Positions 2,058 through 14,257 of a stretch of DNA of 42,762 nt are shown here, one piece after another. Position 1 is the first letter of the stretch. Every line of letters begins with the position of its first letter. This DNA is from a virus. The position numbers and the translations under genes are program-made. Location: IMG/VR virus record IMGVR_UViG_3300025009_000198, positions 1 through 42,762 of that record; one strand, 5' to 3'. The notes beneath the pieces were generated by a model, which was not told the origin of the DNA, searched no databases, and saw only the letters and a list, made by a program, of their open reading frames with translations.

Positions 2058-2372
2058 ATGGAACAAACCGTTAGTAGAATCGACTTGAGTGAAAACATAG
2101 TTTGTCATCAAGTCTACATGGGCGAAGGCGTGAAGGGCTTTGTCTACTTGTCGAAAAAGGGTACGTATCACATATTTATTGCAGACACCTTATCTCCAGA
2201 AGCTCAATCCGAAGTTCTAGCCCACGAAATGCACCATATCAAACACGACTTACCCCCAGGACACTATTTCATAGGTCTAGATGCCCAAGGCACTGATTTT
2301 GAGATTAAGGCTAACTCTTCAGCGAGAAAATCGGCTGCCGCTATGCTTAACCTGATCACTAGCGCCATCTAA
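2058..2372 (+). CDS. ImmA/IrrE-type metallopeptidase, short form
   Basis: A 104-residue product with the zinc-peptidase motif HEMHH (residues 56-60) within EVLAHEMHHIKHD, as in ImmA/IrrE (Peptidase_M78) proteins. In ICEBs1 and related phages these cleave or inactivate the CI-type repressor on induction. It is preceded by GAAGG at good spacing and lies next to the repressor gene. It is shorter than ImmA of ICEBs1. Its end overlaps the end of the convergent integrase by 14 bases. Confidence 0.8.
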   Translation: MEQTVSRIDLSENIVCHQVYMGEGVKGFVYLSKKGTYHIFIADTLSPEAQSEVLAHEMHHIKHDLPPGHYFIGLDAQGTDFEIKANSSARKSAAAMLNLITSAI

Positions 2373-3999
2373 CTCTTTCTCCGTTTTTTCTAGAGAATGC
2401 ATGGAATATCCATGTACTCTCTATGTTATAAAGTGTGGTATGGTTCTGCGCATTTCTTGAGATGCTTAACTCCATACCATGAAAAAAATAATACTGAGCC
2501 GTAACTATCGAGTCCCATTTTCCAGCCTCATTTAATACAGTTTTTACCTCTACTCGGCGCACCATGGCCCGGACAAGAGCAGACTTTTCTTCTTCGGTTA
2601 ACTCGTCTAAATGATCACGTACTGCATCGATCACTAGACGTACGTTTAGTACGTTGCCTTCAAAATTTTGCGCGTTATTTATCTTGTCAAATAGAAATTC
2701 CTTCCGTGAATTCAAAGACCCTAATTCGTTAGCCAATTCTTCTAAGGCTTCCTCAGCTTCTTGCTCTGTTAATTTTCCCCGAGTCATTAGGCCTATGACC
2801 TTACCCCTAGCCGCCTGCTTATCAATGATAAAATTTTCTACCTCGGCTAATTCAATTTGTAGAGGCTCACTAGACTCTTTGTTTTTCCCCAGTTCCTTTT
2901 CCATTTCTTCTATCAATTCTTCAGGGTGCGATAAAAGCTCGTAGATATCCTCCCATACTGCGTTTTCAACATCGGCAGCTCTTAACTGTTTGGTATCACA
3001 TTTTTTTCCCTGTCCGTATTCTACGGTACCAGTACAACGGTAGTAAACCCTTCCGCTTTTGCTGTCTCCGCTGCTGCCTACTAATGCCCTACCACATTTA
3101 GAGCAATAAATAAGCCCCCGTAAAAGATAGTTATGCTTTTTACTCCCCCTAGCTACATCCGCGTTTTTAACTATTTTTTCCTGCATATCCGCATATTTTT
3201 GATAGTCTATAATAGCTGGAACTTCCAGCTTTATAGTATCTCTTTTCCTTTTTGATCTTTTAAGATAACTGTAAGATCCCATATAGGCTGTAGTTCTCAA
3301 AATAATAGAGATGTGCCCAGCGTGCCATTTTCCCGTACTCTTATTCTTTGTACCCTTAGACACAGCTGGGGTAAGAACGTCTTTAGCATTCAGGTATTTA
3401 GCCACTTCCACGGTACTCATTCCGTCTTCATACAGCTGAAATATCAGGCGTACCGTATCTGCTTCCGGATCGTAGATAGCCAGCCTCTTATCTTCGATGC
3501 GATACCCAAACGGCGGGGCTCCTGATACCCATTTCCCTTCTCTGACGTTACGGTCCTTTCCCCCCTGGGTACGTTCTAGAATGGTTTCGCGTTCTAATGC
3601 CGCGATACTAGCGAGAAGCGTCATGAAAAATTTGCCGGTCGGAGTACCTGTATCAAACGCTTCAGTCATGCTTTTTAGTGCGATATTTTGCTTCTCCAGC
3701 AGATCGTAGGTATCGAGTACGTTTTTTACGTTACGCGCTAACCGGTCTAGCCGGTAAATAAATAAGATATCAAACTTCTTATTTTTAGCGTCCAGTACTA
3801 ATTTAGACCCAGCGGGGCGTTCGGATAGGGCGATAGTTCCAGAAATACCCTCGTCCAGGTAAAATTCATGTTCTGTTATGCCCATTTCAGGGCCGTGTAA
3901 TTCTAGGTAGCGCTTAGCATAGTCTACCTGGGATCCAATCGTCCCCTTCTCTACCTGTTCGTCGGAAGATACCCGGCAGTATATGGCACATCTTACCAT
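2359..3999 (-). CDS. large serine recombinase / phage integrase
   Basis: A 546-residue protein with a resolvase N-terminal domain starting CAIYCRVSSDEQ (catalytic Ser at residue 11), the conserved LFIYRLDRLARN region, a Recombinase domain, and a zinc ribbon (CSKCGRAL ... YYRCTG ... KKCD). A coiled-coil region follows, as in large serine integrases. It catalyses integration at attP/attB and, with a directionality factor, excision. It is in the lysogeny region, convergent with the ImmA gene. No excision factor or attachment site could be identified with confidence; attP would be expected in the flanking DNA, for example 4000-4090. Confidence 0.95.
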   Translation of the reverse strand: MVRCAIYCRVSSDEQVEKGTIGSQVDYAKRYLELHGPEMGITEHEFYLDEGISGTIALSERPAGSKLVLDAKNKKFDILFIYRLDRLARNVKNVLDTYDLLEKQNIALKSMTEAFDTGTPTGKFFMTLLASIAALERETILERTQGGKDRNVREGKWVSGAPPFGYRIEDKRLAIYDPEADTVRLIFQLYEDGMSTVEVAKYLNAKDVLTPAVSKGTKNKSTGKWHAGHISIILRTTAYMGSYSYLKRSKRKRDTIKLEVPAIIDYQKYADMQEKIVKNADVARGSKKHNYLLRGLIYCSKCGRALVGSSGDSKSGRVYYRCTGTVEYGQGKKCDTKQLRAADVENAVWEDIYELLSHPEELIEEMEKELGKNKESSEPLQIELAEVENFIIDKQAARGKVIGLMTRGKLTEQEAEEALEELANELGSLNSRKEFLFDKINNAQNFEGNVLNVRLVIDAVRDHLDELTEEEKSALVRAMVRRVEVKTVLNEAGKWDSIVTAQYYFFHGMELSISRNAQNHTTLYNIESTWIFHAFSRKNGERVRWR

Positions 4000-4248: not shown

Positions 4249-4264
4249 TTAACCGCAAAGGTTA
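4249..4264. promoter_or_regulatory. second operator upstream of the T4SS-like cassette
   Basis: TTAACCGCAAAGGTTA, with the same TTAACCG half site and imperfect dyad as the switch-region operators. It lies 35 bases upstream of the promoter-embedded operator. Confidence 0.5.
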
Positions 4265-4292
4265 TTATTATACATCGAATGGGATTATTTTA

Positions 4293-4321
4293 CTGTAATT
4301 AACCGCATCGGTTAATAATAT
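4293..4321 (+). promoter_or_regulatory. cassette promoter with embedded operator
   Basis: CTGTAA (weak -35, 3 of 6), a 17-base spacer that is the near-perfect palindrome TTAACCGCATCGGTTAA (4299-4315), then TAATAT (-10). This is the same operator-in-spacer geometry as the early promoter at 1456-1484. The predicted leader to the GTG at 4370 is also about 42 bases. Confidence 0.65.
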
Positions 4322-4369
4322 TATGTATCAGGTATATATTATTTAGCTGGTACGAAAGGAGTTGATAAT

Positions 4370-4564
4370 GTGAGCCAGCTCGTCAACACAAGCGTTACCC
4401 TAACAACGGAGCAAATTACATTCACCAGGGGTAAAGGAAACACCAGCCGGTACATTCGCAGCCTGATAGACCGTGAAATAGGCAACGAACAAGCAACTGC
4501 GCGATGTCAATCCTTGGTTAGGGCTTACCAGAACGTCTTAAACAAAGAAAAAAGCCCCCGCTAA
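4370..4564 (+). CDS. small ribbon-helix-helix-like protein
   Basis: GTG start behind AAAGGAG. A 64-residue product whose first half (VTLTTEQITFTRGKGNTSRY, then IRSLIDREI) has the beta strand plus two helices of Arc/CopG-type DNA-binding proteins. It is the first gene of the plus-strand cassette and probably an autoregulator or a DNA-binding accessory factor. The family call rests on pattern only. Confidence 0.6.
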   Translation: MSQLVNTSVTLTTEQITFTRGKGNTSRYIRSLIDREIGNEQATARCQSLVRAYQNVLNKEKSPR

Positions 4565-4655
4565 CGGAGCCTAGACTGTGCCTATGTAAGTTTATCGTCT
4601 ATAAACTTTATGCGACAGGTACCCCGTTTTATTCCAAAAAGGAGGTATTCCGCAA

Positions 4656-4976
4656 ATGTTAAGATTAACCAACCATTTCCGCAAGCACAAAAGCTTCTAT
4701 TTTCAAGTCGGAATTACGGCGGCCGCAATGCTCCTCTCCCCTACCGTGGCTTTAGCTTCAAACCTTGACGATAAAGGCATGAGTATTTATTGGAAGATTG
4801 TCAGTGTAGGTAAATATGTAATTTTGGGTAAAGGGTCCGTTAACTCTATCCAGTCTGTCTTAGACGGGGACTATGAAAAAGCAAAACATCAGTTTATTGG
4901 ATACCTCATATGCTTTGGCGCTATGCTTGCCCTCCCCCAAGCGTTGGACCAAATAGAGGGGCTGTTTAAATCATGA
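4656..4976 (+). CDS. VirB2/TrbC pilin-like membrane protein
   Basis: A 106-residue product behind AAAAAGGAGG. A basic N-terminus and hydrophobic stretch end in VALAS (signal-peptide-like, cleavage near residue 35). Then come a second hydrophobic segment, a short charged loop (DGDYEKAKHQ) and a third hydrophobic segment (FIGYLICFGAMLALPQAL). Signal peptide plus helix-polar loop-helix is the layout of VirB2/TrbC-type pilins of type IV secretion systems. Its stop overlaps the start of the next gene (ATGA), so the two are co-translated. A holin-like role is an alternative, but the phage already has a holin with its lysin. Confidence 0.5.
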   Translation: MLRLTNHFRKHKSFYFQVGITAAAMLLSPTVALASNLDDKGMSIYWKIVSVGKYVILGKGSVNSIQSVLDGDYEKAKHQFIGYLICFGAMLALPQALDQIEGLFKS

Positions 4977-5602
4977 TCTTAGCGGCTTTAAAGGGTGGAG
5001 TTATATTAGCCGTTGTAACCATGATCATGACTAAGCCTGTATTATTCCTTGCTTACGCACATGTTGTCGCATTGATTGGTTGCACGTCATTAATCCTCTT
5101 ATATGTAGGGGGATTCAAGCAGGGGCTTAGATGGGTCGGTATAGCGCTGGTTAGTTACATTCTCCTTAATATTTTCATAGACGTCAACGGGGGTAGTGAC
5201 ACAGTTAAACGCGGTGAATATATCGCCCCGGTTGTTGGACCAGTATCTAGCCCCTTCGGCCCACGCCTTTCCTCCCCCGAGGGATTTCACTACGGTATAG
5301 ATTTCGCGGTACCGGAAGGTACTAAAGTTCGATCGAGTAAAGCAGGAACCATAAGCCTTGCTGGATACAACGGTAACATAGTTGGTAATGTAGTGGAAAT
5401 TGATCACCCGGACGGGACACAGACAATGTACGCCCACAACAGCCAGGTATTACTTATCGTAGGTCAGTCAGTAAAACAGGGCGATGTTATAGCCTTAAGC
5501 GGTAACACAGGGCGCAGCACAGGCCCCCATGTACATTTCGAAATACGCCTTGATGGTGGAAAAACGTCAGTCGATCCGGCACCACACTTGAATTTAAAGT
5601 AG
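4973..5602 (+). CDS. membrane-anchored M23 (LytM) peptidase
   Basis: A 209-residue product with about three N-terminal transmembrane segments (residues about 6-70), a short linker, then a LytM/M23 domain. The zinc-ligand motifs are HYGIDFAVPEGT (HxxxD) and GPHVHFEIR (HxH), with the MYAHN His in between, all present. M23 enzymes cut peptide cross-bridges in peptidoglycan. Here the domain would face the wall from the membrane, as wall-remodelling enzymes of Gram-positive conjugation systems do. The start overlaps the preceding stop. It lies between pilin-like and ATPase genes rather than in the lysis module. Confidence 0.85.
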   Translation: MILAALKGGVILAVVTMIMTKPVLFLAYAHVVALIGCTSLILLYVGGFKQGLRWVGIALVSYILLNIFIDVNGGSDTVKRGEYIAPVVGPVSSPFGPRLSSPEGFHYGIDFAVPEGTKVRSSKAGTISLAGYNGNIVGNVVEIDHPDGTQTMYAHNSQVLLIVGQSVKQGDVIALSGNTGRSTGPHVHFEIRLDGGKTSVDPAPHLNLK

Positions 5603-5615
5603 GAGGTAAATGGTA

Positions 5616-8006
5616 ATGAAGCCTATTAAACTAAGCGAGTACGTGGCGATTATAAAGCCAACCTACGTATATTTGAGACTTACACCAAACAATGCGATCC
5701 GCAACAACACGTCTAGCAACATTGCCAAGACTATCGGATCGCTATTCAAGACATTGCGGCAAATCATAAAGACAGAACGCAAGAAACTAATTAAGGCGAT
5801 GGGAAAGAAGTTATTGGGTACCAAGTTTTCCGTGGCCTTGAATCCTAAGGTTAGCTACTACATTTATGTCGAAAAGAAGCGTATCGAGTTTTACTTTATA
5901 GTGCCAAAGCAGTACGAGAGCATTATTAGGGAAAAAATGTCCGATACTTGGGACAGCGTAACTATTAAACCCGTGGATGAGCTTCCGAGCTTTAGTGAGG
6001 ACTCGACTATATATCAGTTGGCCTACTCCAAGGAAGATGGCCTTAGCCTAGCGGTAGATAAGCGCAGCAATAAACTCTTGGAAAGCAACATGAATATAGT
6101 GGACATCATGGAGGACGGTGACAAGGTTGGCATATTCTACAATTTCATCCCTACATCCCAGCGCAGTTGGCTAAGCGAGTATAGGTCCACGATAACGAAG
6201 GTACGCATGGAGCAGCCGGTGGATAAAAACAAAGCGGGACCTAAGTACTTGGCTAAATGGGCGTTCTCTCTTTTGTCGGGTCTACTAAATGACGTTGGCC
6301 AAGTGCTTGGAGGTGACGGTAAATACATCGCCAAATACGAAAAGGATAACGCAATGATTTTGAAGCAAACGTTATCCAGTATTTCTAATCATAAAGTTGT
6401 GTCTGATGCCACAGTTATCAAGGGTAAAAACATGGTGCTCAAGGCCCAAATTATTGTACTTAGTGAAAGTAGGGATGAGTTACGGCAACGTAACAATGCG
6501 AAATCTCTAGCCCAAAGCTATGATTGCATAGGCGGCGAAGACAATAGCTTACTTCATAGAAAATATAAGGGGAGGTTTAATCACTTGGATACTAAAGTAA
6601 AGGGTGCAGAAGTACTTAAGGTGGGCGTAGATGAATGTAGTAATTTTTTAGCCTTGCCAGGACGCGAACTTCTGGCGAAACACAAGTTTATTGAGAAAAT
6701 TGAAACCTTAGAGAGTGAGGTTCCGGACGAACTCCTTACCGGCGTAATGTGCCTGGGGGAAAATACCTTCAAGGGGAATAAGCAAAAGGTCTACATGAGC
6801 ACCGACTTTGATTACCAAATGCTTTCACTGGTGCTCATCGGACCGAACCGAGCAGGGAAATCGAAGTTCCTAGCAAACATAGCTCGGGATGCAATTAAAG
6901 CGGGAGAATGCGTAATTATCCCAGACTTCATTGGGAGCTGCCAACTGAGTGATGAGATTGCTTCAGCCTTCTCTAAGGATAAAGTTCTTGAGGTCCGCTG
7001 TGACAACTGGGAGACATTGCAGGGTCTCGCGTATAACGAAGTACCTCCAAGTACGAACCCGTTTATACAGTATAAAAATGCCAAAGAGCAATCGGCGCTA
7101 CTTATGACACTTGTCGATAGTATCAATGCAGACGATGCGAGCTTTACTGCGAAAATGGGTAGGTATTTCGAGAGCGCAGCCTTGGTCGTATTCTTGTCGA
7201 ACGGCAATATCAAGGATGTGTTTGCTACTCTACTTAATTATAAAGTCCGAAAGGCATTTATCGATGTGGTATCTAAAGAGCAGATGGAGAACATGGAAGA
7301 ATATATTGATTACTTGAGAGAACTGGACGAAGTAGATAAGAAAGGCAAGGTAGTTGGCACCAAGACACACTTAATCACCGGTGCTGTGGATAGACTACAA
7401 AAGCTGAAGGTCAACGCCTACATCGAAACTATGTTGAAGAAAGGCAGTGAAAATAACATTGATTTGGTGCAGGAGATACAGAGGAACCAGTTAATAGTAA
7501 TTAAGATGCCACAACGGATGTTCTTGACCGATAACGAAAAGGATGTCTATGTAACCTATTGGATGACAAAGATTTGGCTTGCCCTGCAGATCCGGGAGGA
7601 GCAGGTCAAGGAAAGATCCAAAATGACCAAAGTAAATTTGATTATCGATGAGCTGTACCAGGTGAATAACGCCGAGAAGTTCCTTAAGCTGAAGTTAAGC
7701 CAACTCCCTAAATTTAATCTTAAGCCTATTATCAGTTGTCACTATCTTAATCAGGTTAAATCTATCCGCGAAGAATTCAGAAGCGCCAATGCGTCCTACA
7801 TGCTAATTTCGGGTTGTGATAAAAAGAACTTTGATGAGTTAAAAAGTGAATTATATCCATACACCGAAGAGGATTTACTAAGCTTAAAGCGCTACCACAG
7901 CTTGAACCTGATAAAGTGCAACGATAACTATGCCAAGTTCGTTACCCACCTTCCAGCACCTATTACGCACCACCAAGGAGGTGATGAAAGGAACGCTGCA
8001 GAATAG
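5616..8006 (+). CDS. VirB4/VirD4/HerA-like conjugation-type ATPase
   Basis: The ATG at 5616 is chosen because AGGAGG (5601-5606) is 9 bases away; the ATG at 5610 is too close. An ~800-residue product. The N-terminal ~400 residues have no clear motif beyond an early VirB4-like beta region (SYYIYVEKKRIEFYFIVP). The RecA-like domain has Walker A GPNRAGKSK (about residue 411), a Walker B line VNLIIDELYQV (about 675) and a following ISCHYLNQ segment that matches the motif after Walker B in TraG/VirD4/HerA pumps. Probably an inner-membrane or cytoplasmic motor for DNA or protein transfer, working with the adjacent pilin-like and M23 proteins. No relaxase is nearby. The assignment to VirB4 versus VirD4 is open. 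Confidence 0.75.
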   Translation: MKPIKLSEYVAIIKPTYVYLRLTPNNAIRNNTSSNIAKTIGSLFKTLRQIIKTERKKLIKAMGKKLLGTKFSVALNPKVSYYIYVEKKRIEFYFIVPKQYESIIREKMSDTWDSVTIKPVDELPSFSEDSTIYQLAYSKEDGLSLAVDKRSNKLLESNMNIVDIMEDGDKVGIFYNFIPTSQRSWLSEYRSTITKVRMEQPVDKNKAGPKYLAKWAFSLLSGLLNDVGQVLGGDGKYIAKYEKDNAMILKQTLSSISNHKVVSDATVIKGKNMVLKAQIIVLSESRDELRQRNNAKSLAQSYDCIGGEDNSLLHRKYKGRFNHLDTKVKGAEVLKVGVDECSNFLALPGRELLAKHKFIEKIETLESEVPDELLTGVMCLGENTFKGNKQKVYMSTDFDYQMLSLVLIGPNRAGKSKFLANIARDAIKAGECVIIPDFIGSCQLSDEIASAFSKDKVLEVRCDNWETLQGLAYNEVPPSTNPFIQYKNAKEQSALLMTLVDSINADDASFTAKMGRYFESAALVVFLSNGNIKDVFATLLNYKVRKAFIDVVSKEQMENMEEYIDYLRELDEVDKKGKVVGTKTHLITGAVDRLQKLKVNAYIETMLKKGSENNIDLVQEIQRNQLIVIKMPQRMFLTDNEKDVYVTYWMTKIWLALQIREEQVKERSKMTKVNLIIDELYQVNNAEKFLKLKLSQLPKFNLKPIISCHYLNQVKSIREEFRSANASYMLISGCDKKNFDELKSELYPYTEEDLLSLKRYHSLNLIKCNDNYAKFVTHLPAPITHHQGGDERNAAE

Positions 8007-8076
8007 TCGTAAAACCATTAATCCTGTCGGATGGCAGGAAAACACCGCAGCCCATGGAAAGTCTATTAAGTTTTGA
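7984..8076 (+). CDS. possible 30-aa ORF overlapping the ATPase 3' end
   Basis: The ATG at 7984 sits 2 bases after a strong AGGAGG inside the end of the ATPase gene; the product is MKGTLQNSRKTINPVGWQEN and so on. The spacing is too short for confident translation and the peptide matches nothing I know. Confidence 0.2.
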   Translation: MKGTLQNSRKTINPVGWQENTAAHGKSIKF

Positions 8077-8106
8077 TAAATTAATTTTAAGGAGTTGGGG
8101 TTAAAA

Positions 8107-8673
8107 ATGGCATTGGTAAACTGTAAAGCGTGCGGCAAGGAAATAGGCAAAGGTGTAAACAAGTGCATCAATTGTGGGACGGATCAAAGGAACTTCTTCG
8201 GAAAGCATAAGATCATAACTGGTATTCTGGTGATTCTGGTCCTTGGCGGCATCGGTTCGGCTTTAGGGGATAAGGATAAAGCAAGTACTGCCTCGGCACC
8301 CGTTGTGTCAGCGCCTACATCTACTCAAGCCCCGGCCGCTACGCAACAGCCAAAGGCTCCCCCAATGATTGTAACAGCAGACAAACTTGTTGAAGATCTG
8401 AAGGCCAATGCATTAAATGCAAGTGAAACGTACAAGGGTAGATACGTAGAAGTGACGGGTCAACTATCAACCATCGACAGCGGTGGAAAGTATTTCTCGA
8501 TTGATCCTATGGATGGTAGTTTTACTATGACCAATGTTATGTGCAATATTACTCAAGAACAAAAATCTGCCGTATCAAAATTCACAAGTAAGCAGAAAGT
8601 AACTGTAGTGGGAACTATGACTGATGTTGGAGAAGTAATGGGTTATACTATAAAAGTTGAGAGCATTAAATAA
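8107..8673 (+). CDS. zinc-ribbon, transmembrane, OB-fold-like protein
   Basis: The ATG at 8107 is preferred over TTG at 8095, which abuts the AAGGAG. The N-terminal zinc ribbon has four Cys (CKACG ... CINCG), followed by a single transmembrane segment (ITGILVILVLGGIGSAL), an Ala/Pro/Thr-rich linker and a C-terminal beta-rich domain (YKGRYVEVTGQL ... KVTVVGTMTDVGE) resembling OB-fold tRNA_anti-like proteins. It is the last gene of the plus-strand cassette, before a terminator. By topology the ribbon is cytoplasmic and the OB domain extracellular. The function is unknown. Confidence 0.7.
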   Translation: MALVNCKACGKEIGKGVNKCINCGTDQRNFFGKHKIITGILVILVLGGIGSALGDKDKASTASAPVVSAPTSTQAPAATQQPKAPPMIVTADKLVEDLKANALNASETYKGRYVEVTGQLSTIDSGGKYFSIDPMDGSFTMTNVMCNITQEQKSAVSKFTSKQKVTVVGTMTDVGEVMGYTIKVESIK

Positions 8674-8710
8674 TAAGCTTAGAGCTTAGAGCTTAGTACT
8701 AAACGCAAAA

Positions 8711-8746
8711 AAGGCCCCTAGCCGTTAAGCTAGGGGCCTTCGCCAT
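8711..8746. terminator. bidirectional terminator between cassette and lysis module
   Basis: A near-perfect stem AAGGCCCCTAG / CTAGGGGCCTT with an 8-base loop. On the minus strand it is followed by TTTTTT, a strong terminator for the late operon; on the plus strand the T-run is short. Confidence 0.9.
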
Positions 8747-8761
8747 GCGTAATATAAACCC

Positions 8762-8785
8762 AAATTGGCAAGCGCTTGCCAATTT
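8762..8785. other. 24-bp perfect palindrome at end of the late operon
   Basis: AAATTGGCAAGC followed by its reverse complement, overlapping the amidase stop codon and 20 bases from the terminator. It may be a transcript 3' stability hairpin or a protein-binding site. Confidence 0.6.
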
Positions 8786-9524
8786 AACCAAGGTATTCCT
8801 TAACCGCAGCTGCCGTATCATATTTATCATTCCCCGAAAGTAAAATTTCATCGGTTTGCCTTATCGATGAACCTCCCACAACGATCAATGTTTTTGCTTT
8901 TTTTGCTTCTGTTGATGGCCGTATAAAGATCGCGCAGTTTCCATGCTTTGCGGCTACATCCGCTCCGGCCCAAAAATCTTCTTTGGTGTTAAGTAAAACG
9001 GCTACTTCCAATATATCATTCTCTCCTTCCTGTAAGTCTTTAAGCAGCCTAGCCCACGGGAAACCAGTTCCTGGGCAGGTTGCTTTATTAATGGAATCAA
9101 TCCGGTAGTGACCAATGATTGTGTCCGGACTCGGCACGATCCCTAATACATCAATAAGCCACCGATGAAGGGAAAGTGTCGCTTTATACTGAGCTTCAGG
9201 CACTACATCACCGCTCTGGCCTTCATGTTCGATGCTAACTGTGTAATAGTTCGGATTAACACCGGATTTAAGCAGAGGCCAATCGGGCTTATTTGCACTA
9301 CCGTTTGCCCATGCCGGATTATCTAGGCTGACATACTGATGAATTTCACCGCTTTTCCCAACCCCAAAATGAGAGCTGACTTTACTTGATGGATTAGAAA
9401 ACCAGGAGTCGGTACCAGCTAGTGTTCCACTCATTACGTGGTTGACGATTGCTATGGTTTTCAACTTTTTTGATGCCGCGCTGAAATGCGGAGATCCGAT
9501 CCACCTAATGTTAGGCTTATTCAT
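8784..9524 (-). CDS. endolysin: N-acetylmuramoyl-L-alanine amidase
   Basis: A 246-residue product. The N-terminal Amidase_2/PGRP domain has zinc ligands His29 (IAIVNHV), His139 (IIGHYRI) and Cys150 (TCPGTGFPW). The C-terminal ~80 residues (LIVVGGSS ... LLSGNDKYDTAAAVKEYLG) resemble the cell-wall-binding repeat 2 family (CW_binding_2). It hydrolyses the amide bond between muramic acid and the stem peptide at lysis. The ATG overlaps the stop of the holin gene by 4 bases, so the pair is coupled. It is the last gene of the late operon. Confidence 0.93.
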   Translation of the reverse strand: MNKPNIRWIGSPHFSAASKKLKTIAIVNHVMSGTLAGTDSWFSNPSSKVSSHFGVGKSGEIHQYVSLDNPAWANGSANKPDWPLLKSGVNPNYYTVSIEHEGQSGDVVPEAQYKATLSLHRWLIDVLGIVPSPDTIIGHYRIDSINKATCPGTGFPWARLLKDLQEGENDILEVAVLLNTKEDFWAGADVAAKHGNCAIFIRPSTEAKKAKTLIVVGGSSIRQTDEILLSGNDKYDTAAAVKEYLG

Positions 9525-9928
9525 TTTCCTTCCCCCTTCTCCTGTAGCTGGGTGAGCACACGACTTATGCCTGGTGGCAACGGCACTCCCAAGATACCCA
9601 AGTTTTCCGTAACCGATATTCCTTCCCGGGCAGCATAAAAATAAAGGGCTAAAGTCCTGAGAATCGGCTCCGCGTTGCCCACCATCTCATCCAGCAATAC
9701 AGCTATGAGCAGCACCGCGAGGATGGCTCCCTTGCGTAGACCACCCCACCACATTACATCGCTGTTCACAGTTTTGTTTTTTACTGCCCCCAGAAAGCCC
9801 GTAATGTAGTCAACGACCATGAGGGCTATTAAGACTCGTAACGCTATATCCCACCCTCCCAGGCACGCGCTCATGATCGTACCTGCCGAGGCTATTACCG
9901 TGCTAAAACCTACCTCTTTTATGTTCAT
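9521..9928 (-). CDS. holin (phage holin family 4, Holin_4_1 type)
   Basis: A 135-residue product with three to four hydrophobic segments, the characteristic MVVDYITGFLGAVKNK signature of the toxin-secretion/phage-lysis holin family and a charged C-terminus. It starts with ATG behind AAAGGA. It forms membrane holes that release the amidase. It overlaps the amidase gene by 4 bases. Confidence 0.93.
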   Translation of the reverse strand: MNIKEVGFSTVIASAGTIMSACLGGWDIALRVLIALMVVDYITGFLGAVKNKTVNSDVMWWGGLRKGAILAVLLIAVLLDEMVGNAEPILRTLALYFYAAREGISVTENLGILGVPLPPGISRVLTQLQEKGEGK

Positions 9929-10014: not shown

Positions 10015-10341
10015 TTAAGCTTCAGCGTCTTCTTCCCAGTCTAACTTTTGTCCACAATCACAAACTTTTTTACTGTACCAGTGTTTGTAATAGCCATCAC
10101 CTAAACTCTCGCTTAACTCTGTATCACATGACGGACACAATGCAGGACTCCATGATTCAATAATAGGTTTCCGGGGAATTTGTTTGTTTATGGACGCATT
10201 GACAAAAGCGTTTACGCTCAATCCTTCCTTGTCTGCATATGCTTTGATCTTTTCCTTTTCCCCTTTTGGCACGGTAAGCGGTATTCTGTCATACGCCTTT
10301 TCATTATACTTCCGATTTGCCTTAGTTCTCGCTGTTGGCAT
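10015..10341 (-). CDS. Arc-like ribbon-helix-helix protein with C-terminal zinc ribbon
   Basis: A 108-residue product. The N-terminal DNA-binding part (YDRIPLTVPKGEKEKIKAYA, then DKEGLSVNAFVNASI) matches Arc-type RHH proteins. The C-terminal part has CPSC ... CDCG, a likely zinc ribbon. The start follows GAGGTGAGGAT. It is divergent from the 68- and 93-residue genes across a control region carrying two ACTAACG copies, the likely operator. Probably a local regulator of that small module. Confidence 0.75.
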   Translation of the reverse strand: MPTARTKANRKYNEKAYDRIPLTVPKGEKEKIKAYADKEGLSVNAFVNASINKQIPRKPIIESWSPALCPSCDTELSESLGDGYYKHWYSKKVCDCGQKLDWEEDAEA

Positions 10342-11864: not shown

Positions 11865-12884
11865 CTACGTCTTTGATTGTTCATTGCAAACTTCCATGAG
11901 TTCATCGATTCGTAAACTTTGCCTCAGATTGTAGCTATTTGACCATCTTAGCCACCCCATAGTTGACGCTAGCGACGACCTGTATTGGTCGATTGATATC
12001 TTGTTCTTGCCCAATAGCACCGGTAATCGCTTGATCCGCTTTTTAGTTCTCTTGGCCGTGCTTTTCCTAACGAGAATATAACCGCGAAAGTGCCTATATC
12101 CCAAGAAATCAACTCCACGTGACACTTGGAACAAGTCGCACTTACTAAACGTCAACCTTAGTTTTTCAAGTAAGAATTCTTCAATGATTACCGCCATCTC
12201 ACCCAGAAACTTTTTGTCATCATGAAATAGTAGGAAGTCGTCGCAATATCGAATGTAATGCTTAATGTGGTATTTGTGCTTCATTAACTGATCGAGTTCA
12301 TTCATGTACAAATTTCCGAACCATTGACTCGTGAAGTTACCAATTGGGGTATTCGTGTTGTCACCAATGCTGTAGATGATATCTTTGAGCAGCCAGAGTG
12401 TGTCCTTACATTTTATTTTCCTCTGTACGATCTCAAACAAGATATCGTGCTTGATCGATGGGTAAAACTTTGAGATGTCGCACTTTAGACAGTATTTGTT
12501 TTTGCGAACAAACTCCATGGTTCGTTTGCTACCGGAGTGCATTCCCTTACCGCTTCTACAAGCATAAGAGTCGTGGATAAATAACTTGTCCCATATCGGC
12601 TCAAGCACATTCAAGAGTGCGTGCTGAATGATCCGGTCAGGATTAAAGGGTAGTTTGTAGATCAAGCGCTTTTTAGGTTCAAATATGGTTTTAGTCTTAT
12701 ATGGTGAGGTTGTAAATGTTTTATTGGCAAGGCTTTCACGGATCTTAGTAATATTCGCGTCAAGATCTTTTTCAAAGTTTTGAACTGTATTTTGCCAACC
12801 TTTGCCCTTTCGTGCGCGAAGGTAAGCCAGGTGTATGTTCTCTTCACTGATTATCTGTCCAAATAGATTCCCGTGTCTTTTCAT
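11865..12884 (-). CDS. DGR reverse transcriptase
   Basis: A 339-residue group II-intron-like RT. The palm motif YIRYCDDFLLF has catalytic YCDD at residues 213-216, the upstream Asp is in LKCDISKFYPSI (133-144), and motif 4 is IGNFTSQWF (181-189), the GxxxSQ form typical of DGR RTs. A maturase-type thumb follows; no endonuclease domain. It copies the template repeat RNA with errors at adenines for transfer into the variable repeat. It directly follows the template repeat. The start ATG has no clear Shine-Dalgarno and a 9-bp hairpin lies just upstream, so translation may be low or regulated. Confidence 0.95.
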   Translation of the reverse strand: MKRHGNLFGQIISEENIHLAYLRARKGKGWQNTVQNFEKDLDANITKIRESLANKTFTTSPYKTKTIFEPKKRLIYKLPFNPDRIIQHALLNVLEPIWDKLFIHDSYACRSGKGMHSGSKRTMEFVRKNKYCLKCDISKFYPSIKHDILFEIVQRKIKCKDTLWLLKDIIYSIGDNTNTPIGNFTSQWFGNLYMNELDQLMKHKYHIKHYIRYCDDFLLFHDDKKFLGEMAVIIEEFLLEKLRLTFSKCDLFQVSRGVDFLGYRHFRGYILVRKSTAKRTKKRIKRLPVLLGKNKISIDQYRSSLASTMGWLRWSNSYNLRQSLRIDELMEVCNEQSKT

Positions 12885-12893
12885 AAATAATGT

Positions 12894-12933
12894 ATGGGCG
12901 TAATTTTCGCAAGATGCTACTAACTACGCCCAT
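12894..12933. other. inverted repeat in the leader between template repeat and RT
   Basis: ATGGGCGTA (12894-12902) and TACGCCCAT (12925-12933), perfect 9-bp arms around a 22-base loop, ending 9 bases before the RT start codon on the minus strand. GGGAGG abuts its 5' arm. It may shape the template RNA or control RT translation. Confidence 0.6.
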
Positions 12934-13016
12934 CCTCCCTTTTAGTGTTTTGCTTCATTTACATGAGACAGGGCCAACAGATCCAGCCAGGAGTTGCTCA
13001 AAACCTGTATCTGCGT

Positions 13017-13123
13017 GCTGAACTGACCACTGATATTCGAATTAGCATTCCAGCGATAATTATTCGCATTCCGTGACTGTGACCCGGAATTCGTGCCATT
13101 ATTCCAATTAGCGCCCGCCAGCA
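13017..13123 (-). repeat. DGR template repeat (TR)
   Basis: 107 bp aligning without gaps to 13160-13266. There are 19 differences, 18 of them at TR adenines of the sense (minus) strand and one at a T. In the target frame the TR would read AGANWNNGTNSGSQSRNANN, rich in AAT (Asn) codons, the codons that adenine mutagenesis diversifies best. It is noncoding here and lies between the target gene and the RT gene. Confidence 0.95.
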
Positions 13124-13144
13124 GACCTACTAGCCCATAAAATT

Positions 13145-14257
13145 TTACTGGCTCCGCGCGCCGAACCGACCACCGACATTCGAACCAGCACGCCAGCGAT
13201 AATAACTCGCAATCCGCGACCGCGACCCGGAATTCGCGCCATCATCCCACCTAGCGCCCGCCAGCAACTTGGTATCTCCATAAGTTCCTTGTCTATACAG
13301 CTGACCTTTTCCGCCCGGTAACGCATACCATCCCCAAGCGGGGGAGGGATCCGCTGACCCAGTCACCGCATTTTGTGTGTATGCAGCTGCAGTATTTTCA
13401 GTGTGCGTATGCGCAAGGCTGCTTAATTGGTAGCTCTGCTCGTCCAGCCATTGCCACATCGCGCCTGCGCAATCCTCACAGCCGATGTTGCTCACCATCC
13501 GTCTGCCAGCAGTGTCGCTGTGCCCTCCTGTGTTATTCGGATCAACAGACCCAAGAATATTGGTTTGCTCGTTAGACCCTGCGGCAATAACCTGGAACTC
13601 AAAGTCTTTCAATAATCGTTTTCTTACCGCTCCACCGTCATCCACGAAGCTATTCCAGTCTCGGGTGTCCGAAATAGTTGCGCCAAAGACGCTTGCAGTT
13701 GAGGGTCCTGTTCCGCTTGTTAGATAGATATCAACCCAGATCCCTGTGGCTGCTGAATAGACCATGCCTTCAGGGTTCGAGACTGGACGAAAGGCAAGGT
13801 CCCAAATTGACGCGGGGAGGATATCACCTGTCAAAAAGCCAGTCAGTGGATGACCTGCGACCGCTCCAACCGAGAGGCATAGGCAATGGAATCCACCGAT
13901 CTTGCGCGAGTTGGAGGAAGTATATCCGGTTGGAACTGTTGAGTTAGCTGAAAGCACGAAGGTAGGAGAATTACCGGAACCAGGTTGGCAAGCGTAAATG
14001 TAAAAATCTTTCCCGGCTCGGTTGGCTGCCACTGCGTAATCTGTCGGGGAAATAGAGTCCCAGCTCGCGGAATTATTTAGGTCGATGCTCGCTTGGGCCG
14101 GTAGCAAATAGCCCTGGTTGTTTATGTTAACCGTTAGCGTGTTAGGGGAGAGCAAGGTTGTATTAGCGCCTCCAAGCGCCCAGCTTACGTCTCTAGCATA
14201 GTGTGCTGGGACAGAGGCAATGGCCAGTCTAACGTCTGTAATGGGGTTAAATAGCAT
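13145..14257 (-). CDS. DGR target: tail fibre/adhesin with C-type-lectin-like C-terminus
   Basis: A 370-residue product. The N-terminal two thirds are beta-rich tail-fibre-like. The C-terminal region (WGWYALPGGKGQLY ... TKLLAGARWDDGANSGSRS) matches the C-type-lectin/formylglycine-type fold of DGR variable proteins. The last ~36 codons are the variable repeat, ending right at the stop. It should sit at the tail tip and bind the host receptor, with DGR action changing up to about 16-18 residues. It starts with ATG behind AGGGGG, 3 bases after the stop of the upstream gene. Confidence 0.92.
   Translation of the reverse strand: MLFNPITDVRLAIASVPAHYARDVSWALGGANTTLLSPNTLTVNINNQGYLLPAQASIDLNNSASWDSISPTDYAVAANRAGKDFYIYACQPGSGNSPTFVLSANSTVPTGYTSSNSRKIGGFHCLCLSVGAVAGHPLTGFLTGDILPASIWDLAFRPVSNPEGMVYSAATGIWVDIYLTSGTGPSTASVFGATISDTRDWNSFVDDGGAVRKRLLKDFEFQVIAAGSNEQTNILGSVDPNNTGGHSDTAGRRMVSNIGCEDCAGAMWQWLDEQSYQLSSLAHTHTENTAAAYTQNAVTGSADPSPAWGWYALPGGKGQLYRQGTYGDTKLLAGARWDDGANSGSRSRIASYYRWRAGSNVGGRFGARSQ
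13160..13266 (-). repeat. DGR variable repeat (VR)
   Basis: The last 107 bp of similarity at the 3' end of the target gene. Codon changes from TR include AAT to GAT, ATT, AGT, TAT, CGT and GGT, and CAG to CGG, with flanking GC-rich blocks conserved. Adenine-dependent differences continue for a few bases past the aligned block towards the stop codon. VR and TR are separated by only 36 bp. Confidence 0.95.

Follow-up and report, generated by a model that had tools for sequence, protein, structure and literature searches.

Across very divergent phages and prophages, genes for an RHH protein, a pilin-like protein, a small TM protein (in some copies with an M23 peptidase domain) and a VirB4-like ATPase keep the same order. 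We think that this module probably, if by no means certainly, encodes a minimal VirB2/VirB3/VirB4-like translocon for a Gram-positive-type envelope. A pilin-motor pair found across such different phages would be a widespread trans-envelope phage machine, to which one paper has so far given a few lines of speculation. Since members occur in the Bacillus subtilis phages SPP1 and SPO1, the module is directly testable in laboratory strains.

Gene layout of the locus

We analyzed a complete virus record of 42,762 bases (the window). Pfam recognized a terminase, a DNA polymerase A, a VapE-like primase and a holin among its proteins, and the closest relatives of its TerL were those of phages of Clostridioides and Terrisporobacter. 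No match to an Rfam family and no tRNA was found in the window. A preliminary description of this DNA had reported five consecutive plus-strand genes between integrase and lysis genes. All five ORFs were confirmed, with a serine recombinase on one side and an amidase/holin on the other, as follows.

2359-3999, minus strand: serine recombinase, one flank of the five-gene stretch
4249-4271 and 4299-4321: two 23-nt direct repeats, 83% identical, candidate RHH operator
4370-4564, plus strand: RHH DNA-binding protein, 64 aa, GTG start
4656-4976, plus strand: pilin-like protein, 106 aa, signal helix and two-helix hairpin
4973-5602, plus strand: TM-M23 protein, 209 aa, small TM domain fused to an M23 peptidase
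5610-8006 (alternative start 5616), plus strand: VirB4-like ATPase, 798 aa
8095-8673, plus strand: zinc ribbon/TM/OB-fold protein, TTG start, internal ATG at 8107
8710..8741, minus strand: intrinsic terminator, strong stem 8741-8710
8784-9928, minus strand: amidase/holin, the other flank of the five-gene stretch

The strong stem that had been described as closing the cassette was present. However, its T-tract lies on the minus strand, indicating that the stem at 8741-8710 mainly ends the opposing lysis operon; it may stop plus-strand transcripts as well.

The RHH assignment of the first gene was supported. The protein matched the RHH gene found ahead of the module at most related loci, and hhalign of window-type against Bacillus/phage-type RHH proteins gave an E-value of 2e-5 (reversed control, 0.3). 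Each 23-nt repeat upstream of the gene contains an imperfect palindrome (AACCGCAAAGGTT and TTAACCGCATCGGTTAA), the palindrome count being at most modestly, and not clearly, above that of shuffled sequences (41 of 500 shuffles reach it). From these sequences we infer that the repeats within 4249..4321 are a candidate RHH operator.

The ATPase is VirB4-like

Over its full length the ATPase belongs to PHROG 5156, annotated as "unknown function" (E = 3e-81). It carries the Walker A motif GPNRAGKS and the Walker B motif IIDE, and residues G409, G414, K415, D678 and E679 were invariant in an alignment of 36 ATPase homologues. Walker A lies at about residue 410 of 800 and is preceded by an N-terminal domain, as in VirB4. 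The TrwB_AAD_bind family matched the window protein below the curated cut-offs (E = 0.003) and matched 21 of the 36 homologues (best E = 5.5e-6). Among the Pfam matches listed there were only this family and generic AAA, and none to a curated VirB4 or AAA_10 family. PDB searches with the sequence, alone or as a profile, returned nothing useful.

An AlphaFold model was built from the 36-sequence alignment (mean pLDDT 83.5). Foldseek against the PDB ranked R388 TrwK/VirB4 first (E = 2.6e-14), over the whole chain of about 800 residues, followed by TrwB and HerA (both 9e-11, each over about 450 residues) and Thermoanaerobacter VirB4. The TM-score of the model against VirB4 was about 0.32, with a multi-domain rmsd of 14.7 Å, HerA and TrwB close behind, and about 10% sequence identity by structural alignment; rotation or shifting of the domains explains the low TM-scores. 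Because of these low scores and the lack of a curated VirB4 or AAA_10 match, we call the protein VirB4-like and do not assign it to VirB4. The preliminary description had offered VirB4, VirD4 and HerA side by side. The full-length match of the modelled structure prefers VirB4, and does not favor VirD4 or HerA as the closest relative.

The same searches bear on readings in which the ATPase has no part in transfer. That the protein is phage-encoded would suit a packaging, SMC-like or other non-transfer motor, but the window encodes its own small and large terminase subunits, TerS and TerL, and the fold search gave VirB4 first, then TrwB and HerA, with no packaging or SMC motor among the best 50 matches listed. 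We regard such a motor as extremely improbable. A HerA/MADS-type anti-phage defense ATPase is also very unlikely. PADLOC gave a mad8 match (E = 1.7e-6), and SIR2-HerA and DUF4297-HerA complexes were among the Foldseek matches. These defense ATPases belong to the same P-loop superfamily but differ in their partners and N-terminal architecture. Further, no SIR2, nuclease or MADS partner adjoins the gene, its constant neighbors are membrane proteins, and the full-length structural match favors VirB4.

The pilin-like protein

The protein encoded at 4656-4976 has a predicted cleavage site after ALA34 (judged by eye), and its AF2 model shows a signal helix followed by helices at 37-69 and 73-105. 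The hydrophobicity of its homologues was consistent with a leader and a two-helix hairpin. The signal sequence and helical hairpin expected of a VirB2-like pilin were thus found, but homology to VirB2 pilins is weakly supported: TrbC/VirB2 (PF04956) matches were weak, with E = 3.7e-4 at best, and occurred in 2 of 37 homologues, a T4SS_pilin match among the homologues stood at 0.059, and hhalign against TrbC gave P = 1e-3 with a TrbC reference set that was too small and poorly chosen. A fold search of the model against the PDB gave no significant match.

Window-type pilin-like proteins aligned with proteins of TP-84, BpsM-61 and D6E at an hhalign E-value of 4e-4 over about 121 columns, and at 2.9e-5 with a wider set (reversed controls, 0.02-0.05). 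By these profile comparisons, the window protein is related to the protein preceding the ATPase in TP-84, BpsM-61, D6E and other phages. Many members have an N-terminal "EFxNG"-like motif in common (read by eye). The TP-84 homologue, TP84_47, is one of fourteen proteins that mass spectrometry detected in purified TP-84 particles (PMC5889276), which shows that the protein is made and exits the cell with phage material. The detection could reflect copurified membrane, and the location could be compatible with virion, filaments or membrane debris alike.

The small TM protein and its M23 domain

The third gene, which overlaps the pilin-like gene by 4 nt, had been described as a membrane protein with an M23 peptidase. 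This was confirmed by a clear Pfam match (E = 9e-34), and the zinc motifs HxGxD and HxH are intact in the sequence. The M23 domain is C-terminal in the window clade, is fused N-terminally in most Bacillus and Paenibacillus copies and is encoded by a separate gene in locus L040; it is absent from the clostridial copies and the more divergent phages, an Alicyclobacillus plasmid excepted. That the domain can be fused to either end or encoded separately suggests that wall cutting is tied to the TM protein. Pfam backing for VirB3 homology of the TM protein is essentially nil (PF05101, E = 0.19 in 2 of 26 homologues), and the agreement with VirB3 is one of position and size only.

Conservation of the module and the variable fifth gene

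Using profiles built on the window-type proteins, we surveyed 11 viral contigs and 34 genome loci, together with annotated phages. Genes for the pilin-like protein, the TM protein and the ATPase occurred together at other loci, and almost all complete close loci had them in this order, which argues that the grouping is more than chance. Neither of the outcomes named in the preliminary description as refuting it, an ATPase of a non-transfer family or genes that fail to co-occur elsewhere, was observed. The RHH gene preceded the pilin-like gene at most loci. In more divergent phages the matching places were held by an RHH protein, a protein with a signal and a pair of hydrophobic segments, in some cases another 2TM protein, and the ATPase. 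The module was found in D6E and in prophages of Bacillus, Paenibacillus and Clostridia; it is kept in order in SPP1-type siphophages, TP-84 and many prophages, and the motor also occurs in SPO1-type myophages and phage G.

The fifth gene did not share this conservation. Its product has a clear OB/tRNA_anti-like domain (Pfam E = 7e-15) and is similar to PHROG 8545, "superinfection exclusion Sie-like" (E = 6e-14). Homologues of the OB protein were sought beside the other loci, and none was found beyond a weak match in L001; the gene downstream of the ATPase differed locus by locus. Because of this variability, we take RHH, pilin-like, TM(M23) and ATPase genes as the unit and the fifth gene as cargo. 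Of the five-gene cassette first proposed, four genes are therefore conserved together, and the locus-specific OB gene lies outside the module. In two loci the gene directly after the ATPase encodes a type IV-prepilin-like protein (GFTLIELMIVIAVIGIL; L002 10631-11152 and L008 9164-9685), another kind of cargo.

The cargo and the position of the module bear on a different reading, in which, in lysogens and infected cells, a membrane complex would block or reverse the entry of DNA from other phages or would remodel the wall, and no extracellular filament is needed. Many prophages carry the module just after holin and amidase genes, and in several genomes tail, holin and amidase genes are followed by the module and then, directly after the ATPase, by host-like genes. 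This places the module at the prophage end, a usual site of lysogenic conversion. The Sie-like similarity of the window cargo and the variation of downstream cargo by locus point the same way. However, the Sie-like gene does not share the conservation of the module, exclusion usually relies on a single small protein rather than a motor with pilin, hydrolase and filament, and the module also lies in the early/middle region of virulent-type phages (SPP1). Such a superinfection-exclusion or surface-alteration device seems to us fairly unlikely; if the module does exclude rivals, its architecture would be new among superinfection-exclusion systems.

Filament genes and Replic_Relax genes near the module

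Among 78 ORFs upstream of genomic copies, an actin-like ALP_N domain was found in 10 and a tubulin domain in 3; amidases and holins were the other common families. Actin-like genes also occur in SPO1 (gp27.9), D6E and FADO, and the window and several prophages have no filament gene. In L006 (5852-6934) and L007 (5861-6940) a tubulin-family (TubZ-like) gene lies upstream of the module and is itself preceded by a small wHTH-like gene. A Replic_Relax gene (PF13814) directly follows the VirB4-like ATPase gene in L055 (6666-7490; SPO1 gp27.3) and L020 (8748-9575; FADO).

Actin- and tubulin-like genes beside RHH genes, which are nearly always present, resemble plasmid partition systems. RHH protein, filament and membrane-bound ATPase might accordingly anchor phage or plasmid DNA and set its place within the cell, with nothing crossing the envelope. 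Such a tether would not need an M23 wall hydrolase or an exported pilin-like protein, the filament gene is missing from the window and several prophages, and partition is superfluous for an integrated prophage. We consider DNA tethering or segregation quite improbable. It and superinfection exclusion are nevertheless the serious rivals to the translocon.

Relation to known systems

The conjugative VirB2/VirB3/VirB4 core (R388 TrwL/TrwM/TrwK and its equivalents in Gram-positive ICEs) shares with the module the motor fold and length and the order pilin, small TM protein, ATPase. Gram-positive type IV secretion systems include a wall hydrolase, and this component is common to the module and Gram-positive conjugative systems. 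Unlike in conjugative type IV secretion systems, VirB6, VirB8, T4CP and relaxase were not recognized in the module. No relaxase or coupling gene had been seen in the preliminary description, and Pfam likewise found neither a relaxase nor a T4CP among the window proteins scanned, a set including part of the small ORFs. No VirB6- or VirB8-type protein was recognized, and the block contains no further conserved membrane gene. The statement that pilin, hydrolase and motor are the minimum parts of a conjugation channel was consequently too strong, as VirB6, VirB8 and a coupling protein were not recognized and many copies lack M23.

The preliminary description also knew of no described phage system with exactly this set. 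However, in the 2018 re-annotation of SPP1, gp32 is reported to resemble TrwB, VirB4 and FtsK by HHpred, and the SPP1 group proposed that gp32 forms a trans-membrane translocon with gp31.1 and/or gp31.2; ORFs 31.2 and 32 are non-essential in the laboratory (PMC6316719). SPP1 gp31, gp31.1, gp31.2 and gp32 and their relatives in GBK2, 049ML001 and Ray17 have the order RHH-like, SP/2TM, 2TM, ATPase, as in the module; the SPP1-type order was read on the SPP1-like phage 049ML001 as a stand-in for SPP1 (NC_004166). The SPP1-type ATPase is a distant homologue of the window ATPase (23% over 60% of the query). Unlike the window, SPP1 is a lytic phage and has no M23 domain. That paper is not known to develop the idea of a pilin, the connection with RHH genes or the wide distribution (PMC6316719). 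Beyond the SPP1 proposal, the present analysis adds the connection with RHH genes, the family of pilin-like proteins, the changing placement of M23, the filament neighbors and the distribution. A literature search covering few subscription journals and preprints found no paper describing the full module.

In SPO1 the stretch gp27.9-gp27.3 brings together an actin-like gene, genes for three small TM proteins and the gene of the VirB4-like ATPase gp27.4. Its TM proteins had no detected similarity, and the Replic_Relax protein gp27.3 is an addition absent from the window. In ParM/ParR-assisted conjugation of plasmid R1, an actin-like filament and an RHH protein work with the VirB4-like ATPase TraC, to which the actin-like ParM binds (PMC4949242). 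This binding is a precedent for joining a filament and a VirB4-like motor. R1 differs in having a full F-type type IV secretion system and a relaxase, whereas the window has no filament gene.

A possible mechanism for the translocon

If the module is a translocon, the ATPase would assemble beneath the membrane with the small TM protein at the VirB3 position and would use ATP to extract pilin-like hairpins from the membrane, stacking them to form a conduit or filament. Where an M23 domain is present, it would open the peptidoglycan locally. The RHH protein would autoregulate its operon and might also act as a DNA tether. Many relatives have an actin- or tubulin-like filament, which would serve the same translocon complex. 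The module is probably made in the living lysogen or in early infection rather than for virion assembly.

The translocon reading draws on the TrwK match, the upstream pilin and TM genes, the detection of TP84_47 by mass spectrometry, the filament and Replic_Relax neighbors and the independent SPP1 proposal. Counting against it are that no VirB6, VirB8 or coupling protein was recognized, the weak support for VirB2 and VirB3, the low TM-scores and the non-essentiality of SPP1 31.2 and 32 in the laboratory. We tentatively name DNA as the likeliest single substrate; a protein, or a mere surface filament, is the alternative. That the module transfers DNA between cells is a conjecture; if it moves DNA, phage DNA would have a third route in addition to virions and lysogeny.

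Host range and a possible link to spores

ATPase matches in the phage collection came from phages of Bacillus, Geobacillus, Lysinibacillus, Brevibacillus, Alicyclobacillus and Terrisporobacter, two "deep-sea thermophilic" records (D6E) and one Microcystis record. As a control, SPO1-type capsid genes were found mostly in phages of Staphylococcus, Enterococcus, Listeria and Lactobacillus. These results suggest that the ATPase is confined to spore-forming hosts, one cyanophage record excepted, although related phages are not independent and the confinement may equally reflect lineage inertia. The Microcystis record, phage MaeS (MT362618.1, 79,995 bases), is the only non-Bacillota match; its size is similar to that of Slash-type Bacillus megaterium phages, so that its host assignment may merit another look.

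Phage genomes are known to become entrapped in spores (PMC9429907). A lysis-independent DNA-delivery machine of the phages and prophages of endospore formers, in which a VirB2/B3/B4-like conduit would pump phage DNA into a neighbor cell or the forespore, is an idea that we consider unlikely. The RHH protein, with the filament where there is one, would bring phage DNA to a conduit crossing the envelope or septum, and in the forespore variant the genome would thereby survive in the spore; the sending of DNA into spores is speculation. A link to Spo0A was not significant: among 300 Bacilli genomes, all 11 that carry the ATPase have Spo0A, but 248 of the whole set have it too. A strict sigma-factor consensus scan found no sporulation promoters, but no sigma-A ones either. 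Spo0E-like genes occur near the module in one lineage only (BpsM-61, PK2.1 and TP-84), where these phosphatase genes lie shortly downstream of the ATPase (L013 4912-5139, L018 9090-9248 and L056 6757-6915).

Other features of the window

A small protein encoded at 10015-10341 of the window (MPTARTKANRKYNEKAYDRIPLTV...) also adjoins the module in L011 (10501-11088), which suggests related host or phage lineages. Further along, at 11865-14257, the window contains a diversity-generating retroelement with a reverse transcriptase (11865-12884) and an Mtd-like target (13145-14257). Its template repeat (13005-13123) and variable repeat (13148-13266) are 119 nt long and 81% identical, and in a 140-nt comparison 25 of the 39 differences fell at template adenines.
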